Positions 600-10,156 of a DNA stretch of 13,351 bases are shown here, piece by piece. A model generated the notes under the pieces. It had not been told where the DNA came from. It made no database searches and saw only the letters and a list, made by a program, of their open reading frames with translations. The stretch is taken from contig DOTA01000048.1 of assembly GCA_003513015.1 (NCBI GenBank), forward strand, positions 1-13,351, read 5' to 3'. A program made the translations under genes and the position numbers. The stretch comes from Chloroflexota bacterium. GTDB taxonomy: Bacteria > Chloroflexota > Anaerolineae > Anaerolineales > UBA11858. Each line of letters starts with the position of its first letter. The stretch's first letter is position 1.

Positions 600-1472
600 T
601 TATTTGAACCCTGTCATCGTAATGCCGCGCACAAAACGGCGCTGGAAAATAGCGTACACAATCAAGATCGGCAGTAGCACAAGGATTGAGGCTGCCATGG
701 TTAGATCGTAGCGTGTGCCATGCTGAGAGTTGTACCAGGTGAGCAGCAAGGGCAGCGTTCTTTTTTCGTGGGTGGTGATCACTATCAGAGGCCAAAGATA
801 ATCATTCCAGGTTCCCATAAAAGTAAAAATCCCGAGAGCTGCAATAGCCGACCCCAATTGTGGCAAGATAATCCGCCAATAGATTCCAAATTCAGATGAA
901 CCATCAATGCGGGCAGCATCCATTAATTCAGAGGGGATGCCCTCAATGAATTGGCGCATCAAGAAAATCCCGAAGGCATCCACCATAGATGGAATGATCA
1001 AACCCCATAGAGAATCTACAAGATGCAGCTTAACCAGGATCAAGTAGCCGGGGATCATGACCACCTGAAATGGGATCATCAATTGCACTAGAATAAAGCC
1101 AAAGATGGCATCTTTCCCCCCAAATTTATACTTAGCAAAAATAAACCCTGCCAGAGTGCTGGTAAAAATAGTAATAACTACCCGAAAAGTGGCAACAAAG
1201 AAGCTATTGAAGTAAAAAAGAGCCAGGGGAACATGCGGATCGGTGAAAATCGTACGATAACTATCTAACGTCCAGGTCTCCGGAAAGAAGGTTGGCGGAA
1301 TACGAATGATCTCACTGGCTGGCTTTAATGAAGTAAAAATTACCCAAATAAAGGGTACCAGTGTAACTAATGTGCCAAAAATTAATATCAGGTATGCAAA
1401 ACTTTGGGAAAACAACCGTTTTATGGAAAATTTATTTTGCTTACCAGAGGTAGATATTGAGTATGTTTCCAT
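600..1472 (-). CDS. ABC sugar transporter permease, CUT1 MalG/AraQ type
   Basis: A 290-residue inner-membrane permease of the carbohydrate uptake 1 (CUT1) class. An N-terminal membrane segment lies at about residues 25-48 and several more follow to the C-terminus, consistent with the usual six. The cytoplasmic EAA loop that docks the ATPase is clear at about residues 177-210, with DAARIDG at 185-191 and WRIILPQL after it. The C-terminus ([14 protein letters not shown]) is typical of the MalG/UgpE/AraQ half. It pairs with the permease just upstream, starting three bases after that gene's TAA stop and in the same reading frame. GGGAG about ten bases before the ATG, inside the upstream gene, is the probable ribosome binding site. 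No ATPase gene is nearby, so a shared MsmX/UgpC-like ATPase encoded elsewhere is likely (inference). Confidence 0.95.
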
Positions 1473-1475
1473 GAA

Positions 1476-2468
1476 TTAGTACTCCCAATCGGTGCGCAAA
1501 ACCTTGAACTGGACGATCGTGACAAACAAAATGATCAAAAACAGTACCATCGAAATGGCCGCAGCCCAGCCCATATTTTGGTAGCGAAAAGCATTTTGAT
1601 AGATGCTCATAACGAGGGGGGTTGTTTGGTTGCGAGGGCCGCCATTTGTCATTACATCAAAGATCACAAACACTTGTAATGATGAAAGCATGGTTAACAC
1701 ACAGACAAAGAGTAGGGTTGGTTTCAACAAAGGCAATGTAATTCGCCAAAAAGTGTTCCAGGCATTTGCTCCATCCACGCGGGCGGCATCCTGAATTTCA
1801 CGCGGGATCCCTTGTAGTGCGGCGATAAAGAGAATCAGGTTATAGCCAAAATCTTGCCAGATGTAAGCAATAATCACTGCGATCATGGCTAAGGGGATGC
1901 CAAAATACACGGCACTGGGGTCTGTCAACCAGGCTTTAGGAGGGGTCAGGCCGACTGCACGAATGATGGAATTTAGCAAACCTTGCTGTGGGTGATAGAT
2001 ATATCCCCACATCACGGCTACCGCGACGGAAGAACTGATCGTGGGCATAAAATAAATTGCCCGGAAAAATCCTTTAAATCGTTCGTGAATACTTTCGATG
2101 ATGACGGCTAATGGCAAAGTGATGGCCAGGTTGATCGGTAATACCAAAAGAGCAAACATAAAAGTATTTACGACGGCGCTGCGAAAAACCCGGGCTGGTT
2201 GTGTATCTAAAAACATAGCCCGATAATTATCCAGACCGATGAATGGATTTTGACCACCCAGCCCCAAAAAACTACTACCTGCTCGGATGGGGGAATAATC
2301 GAAAAAACCCAAGACTACGGCCCAAACCATCGGGAGTAATGAAAAAAATAGCATGTAGAGCATAATGGGCGTTAGGCTGCGCGTGACAAATTTATTTTTG
2401 ACCCGCTCGAGTGCCGAAAATTTACTCTTCCCCTTATTCTGTTTTGCAAGAATTGTCGGATTATCCAT
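1476..2468 (-). CDS. ABC sugar transporter permease, CUT1 MalF/UgpA type
   Basis: A 330-residue permease and partner of the gene downstream. After a basic cytoplasmic N-terminus of about 30 residues the first membrane segment spans about 33-55. Further segments are near 98-124, 143-160, 188-210, 250-270 and 300-320. The EAA loop is at about 218-250 with [11 protein letters not shown] at 227-237 and [10 protein letters not shown] following. The motif TNGGP near 274-278 is common in MalF/UgpA-type permeases. The ATG at 2468 is preceded by AAGAGG five to six bases upstream. The gene lies 59 bp after the binding-protein gene, with a strong stem-loop in the gap. Ligand specificity comes from the binding protein and cannot be read here. 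Confidence 0.95.
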
Positions 2469-2527: not shown

Positions 2528-3856
2528 TTAGCGGGAATCAACTACAGCATTGGCTTCGGTATTGATGCTCATTAAGGCTTCGTCTACGCTGACAACTCCT
2601 TGTAGGGCGTCTAGTATATGAGGGTAGAGGATTTCGTAGAAAATCTGATCACGATCTGTCAAGTCGCCAATAAACTGGCCGTGTGGCAACAGGTTGAAAG
2701 TAGCTTTTAAGAACGGAGCGTGGGCCAGCAATTCTTCTGGACTCTCCACCAAACTTTTTAGAGCTGGAATGGTTGAAGTGTTGCTGTTCCAAAGGAGTGC
2801 GTTCTCTTTTTCGGCGGTCATAAACATTGCCAGTTTCCAGGCTTCTTCGGGATACTTGGTGTTGGCAGAAACAACTTTGCCCCAGCCCGAGTCAGCTGCA
2901 AATCGGTTTTCTGTGCCAAAATAAGGAGGAATTTCAACGTAATCAAAAACCATATCGGGGTAGTTGATCATGCCTTCGCCAGCGGCCCAAGAGCCTACAA
3001 AACCAATCGCTACATTTCCTGCAAAAAACGAGTCGCCCACCCAGTTTGATTCATCGTTGAATAAAACTGGATCAACGATCTGATCTTTTTGAGCCATATC
3101 GACCAATAATTGAAGGGCGTTCCGGGCCTCGGGTGTGTCGAAATTGAAGTGCATCCCATCATCAGCAAAGTAAGAGCCACCTTGCTGCAAAATCGCGGCG
3201 AAGAATGCAAACGATAAGCCATCACCAGTCACATAGTTGAAACCTGCCCGGGTCATGATATCGCCATCAAATTCCGTCATTTTCTTGGCATCGGCGATCA
3301 TGGATGCAAAATCGGTCCATTGGGGGGGGTAGGTAACACCATGAGCTTCAAAGAGGGCCGGGTTGACCAGGGATCCTCCGTTTTCGAGGTTGAATTCCTG
3401 GGGCAAACCATAAAGCTTATTGTCACAGTAGTAGCCATCCAGGGGAGCCTGGTAAAACAACTCTTGAGCCTGACCGTAGGTCATCAAATTGTCTGGAAGC
3501 AGCGACAGGCGTCCGCCATCGGCATAGGAACAAACCCAGGTACCGAACATTTCGATAACATCTGCCTCTGTTCCTGCTGGCATAGAGGTTTGCAGGGTTT
3601 GGATAAACAGATCGTATTCGAACGTTTCATATTTAACTTCGATATTCGGGTTCTGTTCCATGAATTTTGCGATGATCGCCTCATTTCCAGCCTGAAATGC
3701 GGCATTTTGGTGCGACCAGAGTCGCAATGTAATTTTTTCCTCTTTGGGCGCGGCACCATCACTAGCTTGATCGGTTCCGGTTTTGTCTTGACCACCGCAA
3801 GCCACAAGCACTGCTATGATAGCCAGCAGGATGATCCCATATAGCATTTTCTTCAT
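2528..3856 (-). CDS. Lipoprotein sugar-binding protein of the CUT1 ABC transporter
   Basis: A 442-residue extracellular solute-binding protein (SBP family 1). It begins with a lipoprotein signal peptide: MKK, a hydrophobic stretch from about residue 5 to 18, then the lipobox LVAC with the lipidated cysteine at 20. A Gly/Asp/Thr-rich linker follows to about residue 40, and the folded domain starts at ITLRLWSH, a typical first beta strand. The body shows the usual LYGLP element and, towards the C-terminus, the AWKLAMFMT segment and the [10 protein letters not shown] segment. The ATG at 3856 has AAAGGAG eight bases upstream. It is the first of the four transport/dehydrogenase genes and is separated from the enzyme genes by 159 bp, so it may have its own promoter as well as read-through. 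Ligand is unknown; a mono- or oligosaccharide or a derivative is expected from the family. Confidence 0.95.
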
Positions 3857-4015: not shown

Positions 4016-5053
4016 TTATTCATTTCGCAAGATTACGCGATGGGCATTCTGAAAATATACTTTTTTCAAAACATCATCGGGTAAATACAAACCATAAATG
4101 CGCCAACGCCCTGAGCCTGGCGGCTCTTCATTGTCATAATTGAAATATTCATCATCACTTTCCAGGAATCGGTAATAAATCCGGTAGCTATCCAGATCCG
4201 GGCTCATGTCAGTTCCAAACAAGATCCGATCGGCATATTTGATGAAAAATTTTCGAGCGGTGTAGGGTTGACGGCCCAATTCGGGGATACGTGCTCCAAT
4301 ATCCACATAGAAATTTGGGCAACGATCCAGGAGATTGCCAACCCAATCCAGATTTTCAGCGTAGCAACCAACATGAGCACCGATGAATGTGGTCGCTGGA
4401 TATTTGGATACGAGATTGGCCAGGGATTGCAGAATGAATTCAAATGTTGGAAATTGTGGGGCCGGAAAATGCCAATCTGGGTGGGCTTGAAGTTCCTCCC
4501 AGCGCTCATTTTGGGGATTTAAATCCCAAAAAAAAGCTACAGGGTCGGCAATATGGATGAGCACGGGCAATCCTAGTTCCCCTGCAGTCTTCCAGATTGG
4601 TTCCAGGCGAGGGTCATCAACAGAAACCAATACCCCCAGGTGATCTCGTACCGATAACCCAAAAGGCTTCCAGATCTTCACTCCCTGGGCTCCCCAACCT
4701 TTCTGCACCTGCAAGCGCTTGGCTGCCCAATCTGGAAAATTGTCACCATGCTCAGTCCAAGCGCTCCAATTTACCCCACCAAAAACTGCAAAGCGTTCGG
4801 GGGCAGGCATTTTGAAATAATCTAGATGGCTTCGCAGTACATCCTCTCCCCAGCCCCCATCCAAATCTACATATACCTGGACCCCAGCCTCGTCAAGCCG
4901 ATCTAATAACATAGGCAGGGGACGCTGATCCCAACCCCCTCCAAACGTTCCAGATAAATGGTTGTGCGCATCAATCACGGGAAAGCGCGGTTTTGTAATG
5001 AGAGTGGTTTTGGTTTGTAGAGCCGATTTTGGGCGATATTCACTGAGCAACAT
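4016..5053 (-). CDS. Amidohydrolase-2 family metal-dependent hydrolase (paralogue 1)
   Basis: A 345-residue TIM-barrel hydrolase of the amidohydrolase superfamily (amidohydrolase_2 type, which includes sugar-lactonases and decarboxylases). Candidate metal and active-site residues: DAHNH with the H-x-H pair at 30 and 32, VLIH with His 167, GAHVG with His 227 and FGTD with Asp 282; VKIWK near 125-129 is also conserved with the paralogue. No signal peptide, so cytoplasmic. I chose the ATG at 5053 because AAAGGG lies six bases upstream and the resulting N-terminus (MLLSEYRP) matches that of the paralogue at 8333-9370 (MLLQNYRP). A GTG five codons earlier, overlapping the stop of the FAH-family gene, is also possible. 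Roughly two thirds of residues match the paralogue by eye. The reaction is unknown; lactone or amide hydrolysis within the pathway is plausible. Confidence 0.9.
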   Translation of the reverse strand: MLLSEYRPKSALQTKTTLITKPRFPVIDAHNHLSGTFGGGWDQRPLPMLLDRLDEAGVQVYVDLDGGWGEDVLRSHLDYFKMPAPERFAVFGGVNWSAWTEHGDNFPDWAAKRLQVQKGWGAQGVKIWKPFGLSVRDHLGVLVSVDDPRLEPIWKTAGELGLPVLIHIADPVAFFWDLNPQNERWEELQAHPDWHFPAPQFPTFEFILQSLANLVSKYPATTFIGAHVGCYAENLDWVGNLLDRCPNFYVDIGARIPELGRQPYTARKFFIKYADRILFGTDMSPDLDSYRIYYRFLESDDEYFNYDNEEPPGSGRWRIYGLYLPDDVLKKVYFQNAHRVILRNE

Positions 5054-5064
5054 CTCTAACCCTT

Positions 5065-5985
5065 TCACGCAACGCGATTTTTTAGCACACCCAAGTTTTC
5101 GATTTCGACTTCCATTTGGTCGCCGGGCTTTAGATATAACGGGGGTTTGCGCGTAAACCCAACTCCGTGAGGGGTTCCCGTAGACAGGATATCTCCAGGT
5201 TCCAGAGTGATGGTCTGTGAGAGATAACTCAATAATTCTGGTATCTTAAAAATCATTTTGTTGGTGTTAGAGTCTTGCACCAGTTCCCCATTCAACCGGC
5301 ATCGAATAAATAAATTATTGGCGTCCCCCGCCTCGTCTGAGGTTACGATATAAGGCCCAAACGGACAAAATGTATCGAATGATTTCCCGCGGATCCACTG
5401 TCCATCTGCAAATTGTGCATCTCGAGCGCTGATATCATTAAGCATAGTATAGCCGGCAATATAATCCCCAGCCTGTTCTGGCGGAATTCCTTTGCACTTT
5501 TTTTTAATAACCACTGCCAATTCGGCTTCGTAATCTACCTGGGAACTGCTTTTGGGCGGCCAGCTAACTGCATCATCTGGGCCAATAATGGAAGATGGGA
5601 ATTTGCAAAAGAAGATCGGTTTCTCAGGGATAGGTGTTCCGGTTTCTTCGCAGTGATCCCGGTAATTCAAGCCAACACAAACGATTTTGCTGGGATTTTC
5701 AATTGGTGCTGAGAATTTGAGATTTTCGAGTTGCAAACGAATGCTTTCTGGTAAAGGCATATTTTGATCAGCTAGCCAATTCATGAGCTTCTCTAGCCCC
5801 AGCCAGGCAGCTTCGCCATAGCGGATCAAAGCCAGTAGATCCTTTGTAGTGTCAACTGAAGGGAAGAGAAACTCCTGAGTCTCGCGGGCATACCAGGCAT
5901 GAGCCTCTCTCAAGTCAACCGCGATGCCATCATTTTCTACCCCCAAAGATTTTTGCTGGTGATTAATGTAAGTAAATAATTTCAT
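5065..5985 (-). CDS. Fumarylacetoacetate hydrolase (FAH) family protein
   Basis: A 306-residue FAH-family enzyme. The N-terminal domain (about 1-95) is the variable cap; the catalytic fold follows. CVGLNYRDH (103-111) and the metal ligands in DYEAELAVVI (Glu 153, Glu 155) and NDISARD (Asp 184) are all present. TGTPHGVGF and GDQMEVEIENLG near the C-terminus are also family hallmarks. Members cleave or isomerise 2,4-diketo or 2-oxo-enoic acids using Mg/Mn; in sugar-acid pathways one member cleaves 2,4-diketo-3-deoxy-L-fuconate or the rhamnonate equivalent. Next to lactonase-like amidohydrolases and a dehydrogenase this last role is attractive, but it is inference. GAGG lies about ten bases before the ATG. 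The gene ends 11 bp before the preferred start of amidohydrolase paralogue 1, with an alternative GTG overlapping its TGA. Confidence 0.92.
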   Translation of the reverse strand: MKLFTYINHQQKSLGVENDGIAVDLREAHAWYARETQEFLFPSVDTTKDLLALIRYGEAAWLGLEKLMNWLADQNMPLPESIRLQLENLKFSAPIENPSKIVCVGLNYRDHCEETGTPIPEKPIFFCKFPSSIIGPDDAVSWPPKSSSQVDYEAELAVVIKKKCKGIPPEQAGDYIAGYTMLNDISARDAQFADGQWIRGKSFDTFCPFGPYIVTSDEAGDANNLFIRCRLNGELVQDSNTNKMIFKIPELLSYLSQTITLEPGDILSTGTPHGVGFTRKPPLYLKPGDQMEVEIENLGVLKNRVA

Positions 5986-6025: not shown

Positions 6026-6050
6026 ATTAAAAACGGGTAATCTGCCGGTT
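6026..6050 (-). terminator. Weak terminator-like hairpin after the SIS gene
   Basis: Directly at the stop codon of the SIS-domain gene the minus strand reads AACCGGCAGATTACCCGTT followed by a run of T's. The stem is imperfect (AAC/GTT and GG/CC separated by a C-C mismatch) and short, so termination would be partial at best. It may lower expression of the downstream genes or may be chance. The 63-bp gap 5986-6048 holds little else beyond the ribosome binding site of the next gene. Confidence 0.25.
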
Positions 6051-7095
6051 ACAAATTCTCCAAATTTAATGTCACAACAGCATTTAGGTTTTTGGGCTGG
6101 TCTGGGTCCAAGCCTTTAGCCATTGACCGGTAATAGGCCATTAATTGCAAAACCGGCAAATACAACACATTGCGGATTTCTTCGGGCAAGCCGCTCTCGA
6201 AACAAACATCCGCCTCGGCTTCGCCCAAAGAGAGCACTTGCCCACCCATTGCCTGCATCTCATCTAAAACGGTTTGCTCGTGCCGGGCGTTGACCGACGA
6301 ACGCAACCCAATCACGGCCGCGCTCTCGCCAACCATCGACATCGGGCCGTGGCGAAACTCAAAAAAGTGAAACGGCTCGCTGTGCGTCAGGGTCATCTCT
6401 TTCATCTTCAAGTTGACCTCGCAAGCCAGCCCGTAGCGCGGCCCGCTGCCCAAAAAGTAAAAACGATCCAGCACCAGATTTTCGCCCAGCGAGCGGGCCA
6501 GCGCCTCATATTTTTCAATCAATTGCTCACCCAAAACGGGCAAGGCTTGCATCTGCGACAGTAAATCCTTGCGCCCGGCAGCCAGCGCGGCAAACGCCGT
6601 GACTGCCACATACATCGAGGCGAACGAGCGGGTTTGTGCCACGCTCTGCTCTTGCCCGGCAGAGATGACGAGGCTCACATCCGCGGCAGCCGTCAGCGGG
6701 GTATCCGCATAATTTGTGATTGCCACCACTGGGCCGCGCCCCGCCGCCTGAAATTTCTGCACCGCGGCCACTGTTTCGCTGGTGGTGCCCGAACGGCTGA
6801 TCGCTATCATCAGCGCGGGCGTATCCGTTTCGTAGGCGGTTTGGGGATACAGGATCAACTCTCCGCCGGGGAAGGGACGCGCCCCGCGTCCGGTTAATTG
6901 CTGAAACAGGGAGGCCGCTGCCCAGGAGAGATAGTATGTCGACCCGCAGCCAGTGAATAATGCCCGGATTTCAGGGTGCGCTTTCCTTAGTTGGGTAATC
7001 GCATCCCGGTGGGATTCCACCACTTCGAGGGCTTGCGCCCAGGCGGCTGTTTGGCTCAGGATTTCGTTCAGCGTGTGTTGACCTCGCTTACTCAT
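6049..7095 (-). CDS. SIS-domain sugar isomerase/deglycase-like protein (GlmS synthase-half homologue)
   Basis: A 348-residue protein with two SIS domains, equal to the isomerase half of glucosamine-6-phosphate synthase without the glutaminase domain. Sugar-phosphate-binding motifs: GCGSTYYL (49-56), SRSGTTSET (100-108) and SVAQTRSF (151-158). In the second half are LKMKEMTLTHSE, holding the probable catalytic Glu, and FRHGP with the conserved His. The C-terminal tail KGLDPDQPKNLNAVVTL aligns with the GlmS tail, but the active-site Lys that sits three residues after PRN in GlmS is Ala here. Relatives without a glutaminase domain include glucosamine-6-phosphate deaminases (NagB-II/GlmD), fructoselysine-6-phosphate deglycase (FrlB) and AgaS. 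It is cytoplasmic. GGAG lies about seven bases before the ATG, and it is 22 bp from the upstream gene. The enzyme class is likely; the substrate is unknown. Confidence 0.9.
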   Translation of the reverse strand: MSKRGQHTLNEILSQTAAWAQALEVVESHRDAITQLRKAHPEIRALFTGCGSTYYLSWAAASLFQQLTGRGARPFPGGELILYPQTAYETDTPALMIAISRSGTTSETVAAVQKFQAAGRGPVVAITNYADTPLTAAADVSLVISAGQEQSVAQTRSFASMYVAVTAFAALAAGRKDLLSQMQALPVLGEQLIEKYEALARSLGENLVLDRFYFLGSGPRYGLACEVNLKMKEMTLTHSEPFHFFEFRHGPMSMVGESAAVIGLRSSVNARHEQTVLDEMQAMGGQVLSLGEAEADVCFESGLPEEIRNVLYLPVLQLMAYYRSMAKGLDPDQPKNLNAVVTLNLENL

Positions 7096-7117: not shown

Positions 7118-8326
7118 CTAATTTTTTAGCAGCATATTCATTTGCTCGGCCAGGGGTTCCAGTCTTGCCCGGATGATCGCGTCAAGATCACCTTTGGGGG
7201 CAGCGATCACTTGCGCGGCAATCTGATTCAGAGCCATACCCAACTGGTGTTCGATTCGGCTCCATAATTGGATGGGGGCATGCGTCCGCCCGCGCTGGAA
7301 GGTGTCTTTGATCACTTGCGAAAACGGCGGCAGATTATCTAGAAAGGCGCTCAAGGCATCATCTCTAACCGGCAATGAATTATGCAGTTGAGCATATTGA
7401 AGTTGTGTCTGGCAATCGGTCAGATATTTCACCAGGCTCAAAGCGGCGCTGCCACTAGACCCAAGGGCATGTTTCCAAATCACCAGGTTATCGCCACCCA
7501 CCCAAGGGATCCCAGGGAGTACGGCTGCGGCCAGGTTTTCGCGCACAACCTTGGCCGTTCTGGCATCTTTCCATAGGCTGATGGCATCATCCGCCCCCAA
7601 AATAGCAGCGGCGGTTTTGCCGCTGGCAAATAGCTGGTTACACTGATCGTAATCGAAACCTTGGATTGAAGCAGGTAGATAGCGAAACAGCTCGAAGAAA
7701 GTACGAAAACCTTGCAGCGCTTCCGGTTGTGCAAACAAGGCCTGTTTGCCATTTCCGCTGACAAATTCGCCGCCGGCGGCCCATAGCCAGTTGGCCGCGA
7801 TGTGGATCAAATCCGGGTTATTTTTGGGTGTCGGAAAAACCCAAGGAATTTTTACACCGCTGGTTTGCAGCCGTGCCAGGGTTTGCTGCAAGGCAGTGGC
7901 CGTGGCCAAGGCGGAGTTTTCATCCAACCCGGCCTTGGCAAATAGATCACGCCGGTACACCAAAATGAAGGTGTAAGCTGTCCAGGGGATGGCCCATACC
8001 CGTTCATCGCTGCCCAGAGCGGCGCTCTGCCAGGACAGCGGCACAAAAGCTTCGGGCGCATCCAGCGTTTTTAGATCACTGGCTGAGAAGGCTCTTAACG
8101 CTTCCATGGCACCGAGAGTGTTGCTCCAGGTGGAGCCGACTTGAGAAACATGCGGCCCTTTACTGTGCAAAGCATTTACCAGCAAAGTGCTCCAGGCTTG
8201 TTCCCAGCCAATGTTGTTTAGCTGAACTTTGAGGCGCTCGTTGCGCTCGAAAGACTGCAACAGGGTGCGCAAACCCTCTAATTCATCAGCTTCATCGGTT
8301 ATCATGGAAAATTCGATTTCGATCAT
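7118..8326 (-). CDS. Solute-binding protein homologue without signal peptide (predicted cytoplasmic)
   Basis: A 402-residue homologue of family 1 extracellular solute-binding proteins. The chain begins straight at the mature fold: IEIEFSM is the first beta strand. Then come LQSFE-type helix 1 residues, GWEQAWSTLL (40-49), KGPHVSQVGSTW (56-67), WAIPWTAYTFILVYRRDLFAKAGL (about 111-134), FASGKTAAAILG (233-244) and LPVRDDAL near 318-325. No N-terminal hydrophobic segment and no lipobox Cys exist. A longer start is excluded because the TAA that ends the preceding amidohydrolase lies in the same frame only two codons before the ATG. GAAGG about ten bases upstream is a usable ribosome binding site. 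The order is repressor, amidohydrolase, this gene, SIS enzyme. Likely role (inference): binding the pathway ligand inside the cell as sensor, buffer or regulator partner. It is unlikely to serve the importer directly unless exported by an unusual route. Confidence 0.88.
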   Translation of the reverse strand: MIEIEFSMITDEADELEGLRTLLQSFERNERLKVQLNNIGWEQAWSTLLVNALHSKGPHVSQVGSTWSNTLGAMEALRAFSASDLKTLDAPEAFVPLSWQSAALGSDERVWAIPWTAYTFILVYRRDLFAKAGLDENSALATATALQQTLARLQTSGVKIPWVFPTPKNNPDLIHIAANWLWAAGGEFVSGNGKQALFAQPEALQGFRTFFELFRYLPASIQGFDYDQCNQLFASGKTAAAILGADDAISLWKDARTAKVVRENLAAAVLPGIPWVGGDNLVIWKHALGSSGSAALSLVKYLTDCQTQLQYAQLHNSLPVRDDALSAFLDNLPPFSQVIKDTFQRGRTHAPIQLWSRIEHQLGMALNQIAAQVIAAPKGDLDAIIRARLEPLAEQMNMLLKN

Positions 8327-8332
8327 TTGGGT

Positions 8333-9370
8333 TTAGCCTTCGATGCCCAGTAAACGTTGGGCATTGCGGAAATAGACTTTTTCCAAAATATCATCGGGCA
8401 AAGCTAAACCGTATATGTACCAGCGGCCTTGCCCGGGGATTTCGCTGGTGCCGTAATTGAAGTATTCATCATCACTTTCGAGAAAACGGTAGTAAACGCG
8501 GTAGGCTTCAGGGTTCGGCCCCATGTCAGTGCCAAACAGGATGCGGTCGGCGTAATTGTGGAAGAAACACCGGGCGGAGTAGGGTTGGCGGCCCAACTCG
8601 GAGATGCGGGCTGAAATATCCACGTGGAAATTTGGGGCGCGGTCGAGCAAAGCGGCTACCCAGACCAGGTTTTCGGAGTAGCAGCCCACGTGCGCCCCAA
8701 TGAAGGTGGTTTGGGGATGGTTGAGCACCAGATTGGCAAGCTGCTCCATAATCGTCATAAAAGCGGGGTAGGGCGGACTGGGGAAGTGCCATTCGAGGTT
8801 GCCTTGTAGTTCATCCCAGCGTTCGTTGTGCTCATCGAGTGGATCGAAAAAGGCCACGGGGTCAGCCACATGAATGAGCACGGGAATCCCTAACTCAGCG
8901 GCGGTCACCCACAAAGGGGAGAGCCGGGGGTCGTTTACGGGCACGAGATTTCCTTTAGGGTCGCGCACCTTTAATCCAAAGCCTTTCCAGATTTTCAGTC
9001 CTTGAGCACCCCACTGAACTTGTTTGCGCAAACGTTGAGCCGCCCACTTCGGGAATTGATCACCCATATCAGCCCAACGCGACCAATCCACGCCGCCAAA
9101 GTGAACAAAGCGGTCTGGCGCGGCGGCTTTGAAATGATCGAGATGCTGCCGCAAAATATATTCTCCCCAACCACCGTCTAGATCGACAAAAACACGCACG
9201 CCAGCTTGATCGAGATTGGCGAGAAAATCGCTAACGGGACGGTTGATCCACGAACCGCCGAAAGCGGTGCCGATGTGGTTATGGGCGTCGATCACGGGGA
9301 AGCGCGGGCGCTCGATTTGGCTGGTTTTGACTTGCAAACGAGATTGGGGTCGGTAATTTTGCAGGAGCAT
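8333..9370 (-). CDS. Amidohydrolase-2 family metal-dependent hydrolase (paralogue 2)
   Basis: A 345-residue TIM-barrel hydrolase, same length as and about two-thirds identical by eye to the product of 4016-5053. The same candidate catalytic residues are at the same places: DAHNH (H30, H32), VLIH (H167), GAHVG (H227), FGTD (D282). Strongly shared blocks include DLDGGWGE, the stretch ending in GAQGLKIWK, ADPVAFF, ELGRQPY and YYRFLESDDEYFNY. The differences cluster near 33-55, 82-118 and 190-216, where substrate-facing loops could differ. No signal peptide. The ATG is six bases after the TAA of the repressor gene and in the same frame, with only a weak AGG as ribosome binding site, so translation is probably coupled. 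Codons are visibly richer in G/C than in the paralogue. The reaction is not known. Confidence 0.9.
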   Translation of the reverse strand: MLLQNYRPQSRLQVKTSQIERPRFPVIDAHNHIGTAFGGSWINRPVSDFLANLDQAGVRVFVDLDGGWGEYILRQHLDHFKAAAPDRFVHFGGVDWSRWADMGDQFPKWAAQRLRKQVQWGAQGLKIWKGFGLKVRDPKGNLVPVNDPRLSPLWVTAAELGIPVLIHVADPVAFFDPLDEHNERWDELQGNLEWHFPSPPYPAFMTIMEQLANLVLNHPQTTFIGAHVGCYSENLVWVAALLDRAPNFHVDISARISELGRQPYSARCFFHNYADRILFGTDMGPNPEAYRVYYRFLESDDEYFNYGTSEIPGQGRWYIYGLALPDDILEKVYFRNAQRLLGIEG

Positions 9371-9376
9371 GGTTAG

Positions 9377-10156
9377 TTAGGCCTGGATAACTCGAACGCC
9401 GCGTTCCCGCAGTTGCTCGACGATCTCCTGCGGGGTTGTGCGGTCTGTGATGATGGTGTGGGCGGCGGTGACTGGAGCCACCAGCATGGTGCTGACTCGG
9501 CCAAATTTGCTGTGGTCGGCCAGCACGATGAGTTGCTGAGCGATGCCCATTACGGCCCGGTCAGTGAGAATTTCAGGGGGGTAATCATTGGTGAAACCGC
9601 ATTCTACGTCGATGGCATACATGCCAATGAAGGCTTTGTCAGCTCGAAGCTCGCGCAGTGCTTGCTCGGCCACGTGTCCAACCATCGAAAGTTCGCTCTG
9701 GCGCAGCATACCGCCGATGACGATTAATTCGATGCCTGGGTGGGTCGCCAATTCGTTGACCACGGGCAGCGAGTTGGTGATGACGGTTAGTTTGATGTTT
9801 GGTGGCAGGTTGCGAGCGACTTCAACAATGGTGGTACCACTGCCCAAAAAGATGGTTTCCCCAAGCTGGATGCGTTCCACGGCGGCCTGACCGATGCGGG
9901 TTTTTTGGTCGGATTGTTCGCCGATACGCTGTACGATCGGGGGTTCCTTGGGCGCTTTTATGGCCTGGACCGCGCCGCCGTGCGTGCGCCGCAGGCGACC
10001 CTGACCATCAAGTTCTTCCAAATCCCGCCGGATGGTGGCCTCGCTAACGCTGAACAGGCTGCTGAGTTCCTGCACGGTGACGCGCCCGCGATCTTTGAGT
10101 AGGTTTTGAATTTGATCGTGGCGTTCGATTTTTAGCGGAGTTTCGTTTATGTTCAT
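9377..10156 (-). CDS. DeoR-family transcriptional repressor
   Basis: A 259-residue DeoR-type regulator. The N-terminal winged helix-turn-helix (about residues 10-65) has the classic pattern ERHDQIQNLL, VTVQELSSLFSVSEATIRRDLEEL and the wing RLRRTHGGA. The C-terminal sugar-phosphate-sensing domain carries FLGSGTT (103-109), TNSLPVVNEL, GGMLRQSE, KAFIG and the final LADHSKFGR (212-220). DeoR proteins usually repress sugar catabolic operons and are released by a phosphorylated sugar intermediate. It leads the minus-strand gene cluster and probably controls it. The ATG at 10156 has no Shine-Dalgarno sequence. A promoter 30-60 bases upstream and direct repeats over the start suggest autoregulation. 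The start is supported by family length; no upstream in-frame ATG extends it. Confidence 0.95.
   Translation of the reverse strand: MNINETPLKIERHDQIQNLLKDRGRVTVQELSSLFSVSEATIRRDLEELDGQGRLRRTHGGAVQAIKAPKEPPIVQRIGEQSDQKTRIGQAAVERIQLGETIFLGSGTTIVEVARNLPPNIKLTVITNSLPVVNELATHPGIELIVIGGMLRQSELSMVGHVAEQALRELRADKAFIGMYAIDVECGFTNDYPPEILTDRAVMGIAQQLIVLADHSKFGRVSTMLVAPVTAAHTIITDRTTPQEIVEQLRERGVRVIQA

Follow-up and report, generated by a model that had tools for sequence, protein, structure and literature searches.

A multicopy family of predicted cytoplasmic solute-binding proteins in the Anaerolineae (Chloroflexota)

Results

Gene content of the locus

The window (the whole 13,351-nt stretch of DNA analysed here) carries on its minus strand the genes listed in Table 1, among them one for a solute-binding protein (SBP) that begins without an export signal and is called leaderless below. 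The two Amidohydro_2 genes bracket the leaderless SBP, SIS and fumarylacetoacetate-hydrolase genes in one operon. Three genes lie on the plus strand between 10347 and 13349: one for a TM1586-type nitroreductase, one for a PAS-HD domain protein, and a third, represented by its start, with a weak alpha-mannosidase jelly-roll match.

Table 1. Minus-strand genes of the window and the basis of their assignment
Feature	Position	Strand	Basis
Leaderless SBP, 402 aa	7118..8326	-	Pfam, AlphaFold2, tree, N-terminus, composition
Amidohydro_2 enzyme, 345 aa, directly upstream of the SBP	8333..9370	-	Pfam
DeoR-family repressor; nearest NCBIfam AgaR, 208.5 bits, below the cut-off of 260	9377..10156	-	
SIS-domain protein like GlmD/AgaS sugar-phosphate deaminase or isomerase	6049..7095	-	below NCBIfam cut-offs
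Fumarylacetoacetate-hydrolase family enzyme; nearest NCBIfam 2,4-didehydro-3-deoxy-L-rhamnonate hydrolase, 233 bits, cut-off 500	5065..5985	-	
Second Amidohydro_2 enzyme, 67% identical to that at 8333-9370	4016..5068	-	
Conventional lipoprotein SBP of the locus, lipobox-like LVAC	2528..3856	-	
ABC permease; best NCBIfam UgpA, below cut-off	1476..2468	-	
ABC permease; best NCBIfam UgpE, below cut-off	600..1472	-	

A preliminary description of this DNA had placed the leaderless SBP gene apart from permeases, which proved incorrect: both permease genes lie downstream on the same strand, with the SIS, fumarylacetoacetate-hydrolase, second amidohydrolase and lipoprotein SBP genes in between. The conventional lipoprotein SBP that it reported is confirmed by the lipobox-like motif. 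Pairwise BLASTP between the two SBPs of the window gave no significant match, their identity in a MAFFT alignment is 15%, and on these comparisons the lipoprotein is no close paralogue of the leaderless protein.

The leaderless SBP is read from an ATG at 8326 to 7118. Ahead of its start the coding strand reads GGC TAA ACC CAA ATG, with an in-frame TAA three codons before the ATG and two codons between them. This TAA is the stop codon of the upstream amidohydrolase gene, and the SBP frame therefore has no longer start, as the preliminary description had argued; a missed start or a frameshift is dismissed on the grounds of this stop codon and of the short N-terminus common to the relatives. The protein matches Pfam SBP_bac_8 (PF13416; residues 23-325, 2.2e-19) and SBP_bac_1 (PF01547; residues 18-287, 2.1e-17), both above cut-off, and AlphaFold2 predicts a confident full-length SBP fold (pLDDT 94.7) whose first strand comprises residues 2-9. 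By both methods it consists of the SBP domain only across its 402 aa, and neither indicates a fused DNA-binding domain. Hydropathy windows and a lipobox motif, used here in place of SignalP, detected no hydrophobic segment and no lipobox at its N-terminus. The gene thus encodes, as first described, a full-length SBP without an export signal, and the full fold of the model speaks against a pseudogene or fragment; the dN/dS values reported below come from relatives of the gene, not from the gene itself.

Extent of the leaderless family

A first search of protein databases, in which about 8000 candidates were scored, returned 106 matches. With E values of 1e-50 or better, 104 of them constitute one family, and the remaining two, signal-bearing SBPs, score 46 and 41 bits. 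A hydrophobic N-terminus or a lipobox is absent from all 104. A profile search of proteins, again with about 8000 candidates scored, added 35 new proteins from the best 120 of 123 matches, and among the matches listed none of these possesses a leader; four of the 139 database proteins (P0081, P0093, P0095 and P0126) start inside the domain and are uninformative on this point. The names seen in the databases, where one is given, are 'extracellular solute-binding protein' or a transport-system substrate-binding protein.

In genomic DNA, 80 stretches yielded 85 distinct open reading frames matching the family profile: 77 leaderless, seven signal-bearing, and one cut at its 5' end that was left out of both classes. 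Among the signal-bearing seven, the leader of L115 is a plain signal peptide without a lipobox, and L110 is cut at the 5' end. Twenty further places, which sit outside the tree described below, comprise 15 leaderless genes with a readable start, three that are 5'-cut, one starting inside the domain and one lipoprotein (L189, in genome G766). Genes were called as the longest reading frame from the first start, so that starts are predicted ones and probably over-long in several cases (upstream gaps to -115). A clear export signal or lipobox was found in none of the 77 genomic members and in none of the 15 further genes with a readable start; two members are doubtful, each only with an over-long start, L093 for an alanine-rich stretch (maximum 1.53) and L091 for a lipobox-like motif without a hydrophobic stretch. 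Orthologues carrying signal peptides, which the preliminary description had named as evidence against its reading, were accordingly not encountered, with L093 as the doubtful case. A search of genome contigs gave 13 loci, several on contigs already represented among the other loci; 12 are family members (one 5'-cut), all from Chloroflexota according to record title or taxonomy, and the thirteenth (L129, Actinomycetales, 147 bits), a lipoprotein, lies outside the family. A fused signalling domain was observed neither among the 77 genomic members, where no leaderless frame exceeds 470 aa, nor among the listed database matches of up to 1.75 times the query length.

The family is multicopy. The window genome contains six copies, all leaderless, among the 23 SBP_bac_1 matches that were read; among its other SBPs, a signal or membrane segment is present in all 12 whose start can be read (L132 and L133 being Tat-like by eye), four are truncated by the end of a contig, and L151, a short match that scores under the cut-off, has no leader. 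Six other genomes searched in full gave 4, 7, 6, 8, 7 and 4 matches at 1e-60; all eight matches of G657 are leaderless, and two of the four in G509 are the halves of a tandem lipoprotein. At the same threshold a match was present in 29 of 400 genomes of an order-level sample and in 31 of 396 of a class-level sample, five genomes being common to both. Among the genomes with a match, G411 in the order-level sample and six in the class-level sample (G766, G788, G800, G849, G914 and G998) contain signal-bearing relatives only, G914 being judged on a gene whose 5' end is cut. Four candidates were scored per genome in these large samples, and copy numbers derived from them are therefore lower bounds. 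Two leaderless SBP genes adjoin each other in L101 (579-2999) and in L076 (8346-10822), where the products possibly work in pairs.

A single leaderless clade

A tree was built from 104 rows, of which 77 are leaderless and 27 signal-bearing, the latter including both halves of L043. All leaderless sequences in it fall on one side of one branch (SH-aLRT 100, length 0.97), which corresponds to one change of state. Their sister group consists of 13 signal-bearing rows, with a support of 86. The tree is of a quick kind with SH-aLRT support only and has long branches at L114, L085, L084, L034 and the outgroup; it omits L124, whose 5' end is cut, and, as near-identical outgroup rows, L014-L017, L019 and L031. 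The separation coincides with sequence features: a proline after the first helix occurs in 25 of 26 signal-bearing rows and in one of the 77 leaderless ones, W284 is present in 77/77 leaderless proteins, and a Gly-rich loop before the GG motif, kept in the signal-bearing relatives, is shortened to a gap in every leaderless member. The root lies among signal-bearing SBPs, from which we infer that the signal was lost. A single loss of the signal peptide, in an ancestral member of the Anaerolineae (Chloroflexota), would then have affected an exported SBP related to beta-glycoside-binding proteins, and the protein would have stayed in the cytoplasm, adapted there and radiated into a multicopy family.

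Selection and amino acid composition

Across nine pairs of relatives, to which the window gene does not belong, dN/dS ranges from 0.08 to 0.18, at dS values of 0.80-2.30 for which synonymous change is partly saturated; close relatives are under purifying selection.

A composition classifier trained on 25 exported lipoproteins, possibly including SBPs of other families, and 190 cytoplasmic proteins was rerun with 21 exported lipoproteins, SBPs being set aside, and the 190 cytoplasmic proteins, all from the same loci. In cross-validation the rerun assigned 18/21 exported and 180/190 cytoplasmic proteins correctly. Both versions called 70 of the 77 leaderless SBPs cytoplasmic and seven exported, and the rerun called exported all signal-bearing SBPs, namely 17/17 of the sisters, 14/14 others (both sets containing near-identical rows) and 9/9 encoded in the loci themselves. 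Leaderless proteins have more arginine than the sisters (6.5% vs 2.4%) and more histidine (2.4% vs 0.6%), and their median pI is 5.9 against 4.4, which is evidence of the same kind as composition. Within the window, the lipoprotein SBP obtains a probability of export of 0.98 and the leaderless SBP one of 0.39-0.40, weakly cytoplasmic and near the line.

Binding pocket and candidate ligand

Pocket residues are retained in the leaderless proteins (W41 in 69/77, W67 in 76/77, W115 in 71/77, Y124 in 74/77, W182 in 74/77, W355 in 73/77 and E359 in 76/77) at about the level of the signal-bearing sisters. E359, the sole near-invariant polar residue, is equally kept in the sisters (13/13). The stacking tryptophans W41 and W67, in the numbering of BGTP, the beta-glycoside-binding protein of Thermus thermophilus, are both present in the window protein, the correspondence resting on sequence alignment. 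The titles of the BGTP structures (PDB 7c63 series) include the mutants W41A, W67A, E117A and W177X, matched to the window protein in the same way, and the CbpB paper attributes stacking to W90 and W296 (PMC9601137), residues that by offset would fall near W41 and D246 of the window protein.

Two pocket positions of the window protein, mapped by alignment and offset rather than by coordinates, stand out. Position 118 (E117 of BGTP) is a tyrosine, where 48/77 family members have D or E and 13/13 sisters have Asp; position 246 or thereabouts (W296 of CbpB) is an aspartate instead of the tryptophan found in 47/77 family members and in 81% of 26 signal-bearing rows. Y118 and D246 suggest a ligand unlike that of the sisters, and because of these two differences the ligand is probably no plain beta-glucan oligosaccharide; an intermediate of the amidohydrolase/SIS/fumarylacetoacetate-hydrolase pathway appears likelier. 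Residues conserved specifically in leaderless proteins are few and mostly conservative (W284, R347, L153), and hence no new shared docking surface is visible.

Genomic context across the family

The neighbour labels derive from 18 seed proteins, and short contigs are numerous; the following raw counts are therefore lower bounds. On the same strand and within eight genes, the 77 leaderless genes are accompanied by GH94 (22), permease (17), GH3 (14), GH1 (13), LacI (9), GH4 (8) and DeoR (6) genes; at least one labelled carbohydrate enzyme occurs in 47/75 loci and none is labelled in 28/75, some of these on short contigs. Pfam scans of the immediate neighbours found GH94 in seven and GH3 in five of the upstream genes (57 scanned of 60), and GH1 in four and GH3 in three of the downstream ones (36 scanned of 39), all other families appearing once or twice each except for domains that accompany GH3. 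An upstream neighbour is co-directional for 69/77 genes, 47/77 start within 60 nt of it, and five overlap the upstream reading frame by 4 nt. Many family genes belong to sugar-catabolic operons, frequently a short way after a gene for an enzyme.

The order DeoR-amidohydrolase-SBP-SIS recurs in L049 and L117 (37% and 40% SBP identity, respectively), which also have a lipoprotein SBP and two permeases. In L117 these genes are followed by ones for a GH4 enzyme, a DeoC/LacD-type aldolase and a PfkB kinase. The arrangement is partly present in L045 and L060, and an amidohydrolase gene directly precedes the SBP in L045, L049 and L117 and is one reading frame away in L060; in the tree, the four loci cluster with the window (support 83). 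A special link to DeoR finds no support as a rule across the family, and neither DeoR nor LacI is supported as a constant partner, being neighbours of 6/77 and 9/77 genes. By plain count, BTAD-type regulators, further candidate partners, lie near L063, L091, L100, L103 and L117. In L038 (116-3067), a leaderless paralogue of the window genome stands immediately behind the gene of a GAF-PAS-nucleotide cyclase, which may be a signalling partner.

Discussion

SBPs are assumed to function on the outer side of the cytoplasmic membrane. A cytoplasmic SBP, at the window locus and beyond it, is nevertheless well supported by the single clade, the composition, the purifying selection in relatives and the recurrence of similar loci, from which the compartment is predicted. 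A retained cytoplasmic protein, as proposed at the outset, remains the prediction for the family, and for the window protein itself the composition score is borderline. The opposite reading, namely export by a different route or an ordinary transport SBP that lost its leader through error or decay, can draw on this borderline score, on the seven members scoring as exported and on the alanine-rich stretch of L093 if its longest start is used; the single leaderless clade, the selection acting on relatives, the loss of exported-type composition and the presence of a separate lipoprotein SBP in the window locus make it the least credible of the readings considered here, and hardly to be expected.

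As for function, the SBP fold may have been re-deployed as a free-standing intracellular sugar sensor or adaptor, a reading in which our confidence is evenly balanced. Each copy would bind the sugar imported or processed by its own operon, or an early intermediate, and closure of the two lobes would be read by a cytoplasmic partner (an operon enzyme, a regulator or a transporter), matching catabolism to the supply of ligand. The suggestion in the preliminary description that the protein senses or sequesters the imported ligand or an intermediate would accord with the retained sugar pocket and the catabolic neighbourhood. The chief weakness of the sensor or adaptor is that no constant regulator, fusion or new conserved surface was found; with neither a regulator family that is constant among the neighbours nor a fused signalling domain observed, sensing rests on analogy. 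The main rival is an intracellular buffer or carrier that passes scarce sugar to an operon enzyme without regulating anything. It agrees with the retained pocket, with the gene often following closely on another reading frame (including the five 4-nt overlaps), with sugar-cleaving enzymes as the commonest labelled neighbours and with the lack of a constant regulator neighbour; against this, the neighbouring enzymes are diverse, and a one-to-one binder of micromolar affinity would store little unless very abundant. The affinity is that of exported CbpB, for which KD values of 0.56-1.9 micromolar for cellodextrins are reported (PMC9601137). We regard the buffer or carrier as rather unlikely and favour the sensor or adaptor, given that a one-to-one binder in the micromolar range holds little sugar and that a copy of its own is kept in many operons.

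Two other roles seem still less plausible. A subunit at the inner face of the transporter, whose ligand-loaded form slows or tunes the permease or a shared ATPase (trans-inhibition), would profit from the contacts with permeases that characterise the fold's family and from the permease gene near 17/75 loci, but 58/75 loci have no labelled permease nearby, on contigs that are often short, and the loop that is Gly-rich in signal-bearing relatives is shortened in 77/77; we consider such a subunit improbable. SBP folds have turned into enzymes before, as in cyclohexadienyl dehydratase and THI5, and the leaderless genes sit among enzymes, so that a catalyst acting on the sugars of the pathway is conceivable. 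It is very unlikely, because no catalytic set specific to leaderless proteins is conserved: E359 is shared with the sisters, and the contexts are too varied for one reaction.

Extending the sensor or adaptor to the whole family, the Anaerolineae might possess free-standing cytoplasmic sensors of the Venus-flytrap type as an entire class, with a single origin in a transporter SBP and up to eight copies per genome (G657), each reporting the intracellular sugar of its own operon to a partner in trans and replacing, or acting alongside, LacI-type repressors. We offer this extension tentatively and hold it to be somewhat doubtful. The clade of 77 sampled leaderless genes would show an SBP changing compartment as a lineage with its pocket kept, and points to intracellular sugar sensing or handling in the Anaerolineae, which are common in sludge and sediments. 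Transporter counts based on SBP matches would be too high in genomes that contain the family, and its members may serve as natural cytoplasmic sugar-binding scaffolds.

Comparison with known systems

The fold and the parent family are already known. In the open literature, covered by titles and abstracts, we found no description of a multicopy SBP branch without export signals. LacI-family repressors use a periplasmic-binding-protein fold as an intracellular sugar sensor, and a LacI neighbour matches Pfam Peripla_BP. The likeness is one of working only: LacI repressors belong to another SBP class and are fused to a DNA-binding domain, which the window SBP does not have.

By the tree, the closest relatives of the leaderless family are the signal-bearing sister SBPs of Chloroflexota (L013-L022, L043, L110-L116 and, outside the tree, L189), which have the same pocket residues and carry lipoprotein-type leaders except for L115 and L110, noted above. 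In L043, L113, L115 and L116 a LacI-SBP-permease arrangement is recognisable by eye, as expected of transport SBPs. L043 (3938-6622, in genome G509) encodes a tandem lipoprotein of 894 aa whose two SBP domains closely resemble each other, with two permease genes and a LacI gene as neighbours. From these relatives the leaderless family differs in the shortened loop before the GG motif. BGTP of Thermus thermophilus and CbpB of Clostridium thermocellum (PDB 7x0i), the latter expressed with its signal peptide left out (PMC9601137), are transporter SBPs; the leaderless family differs from both in having no leader and in its cytoplasm-like composition.
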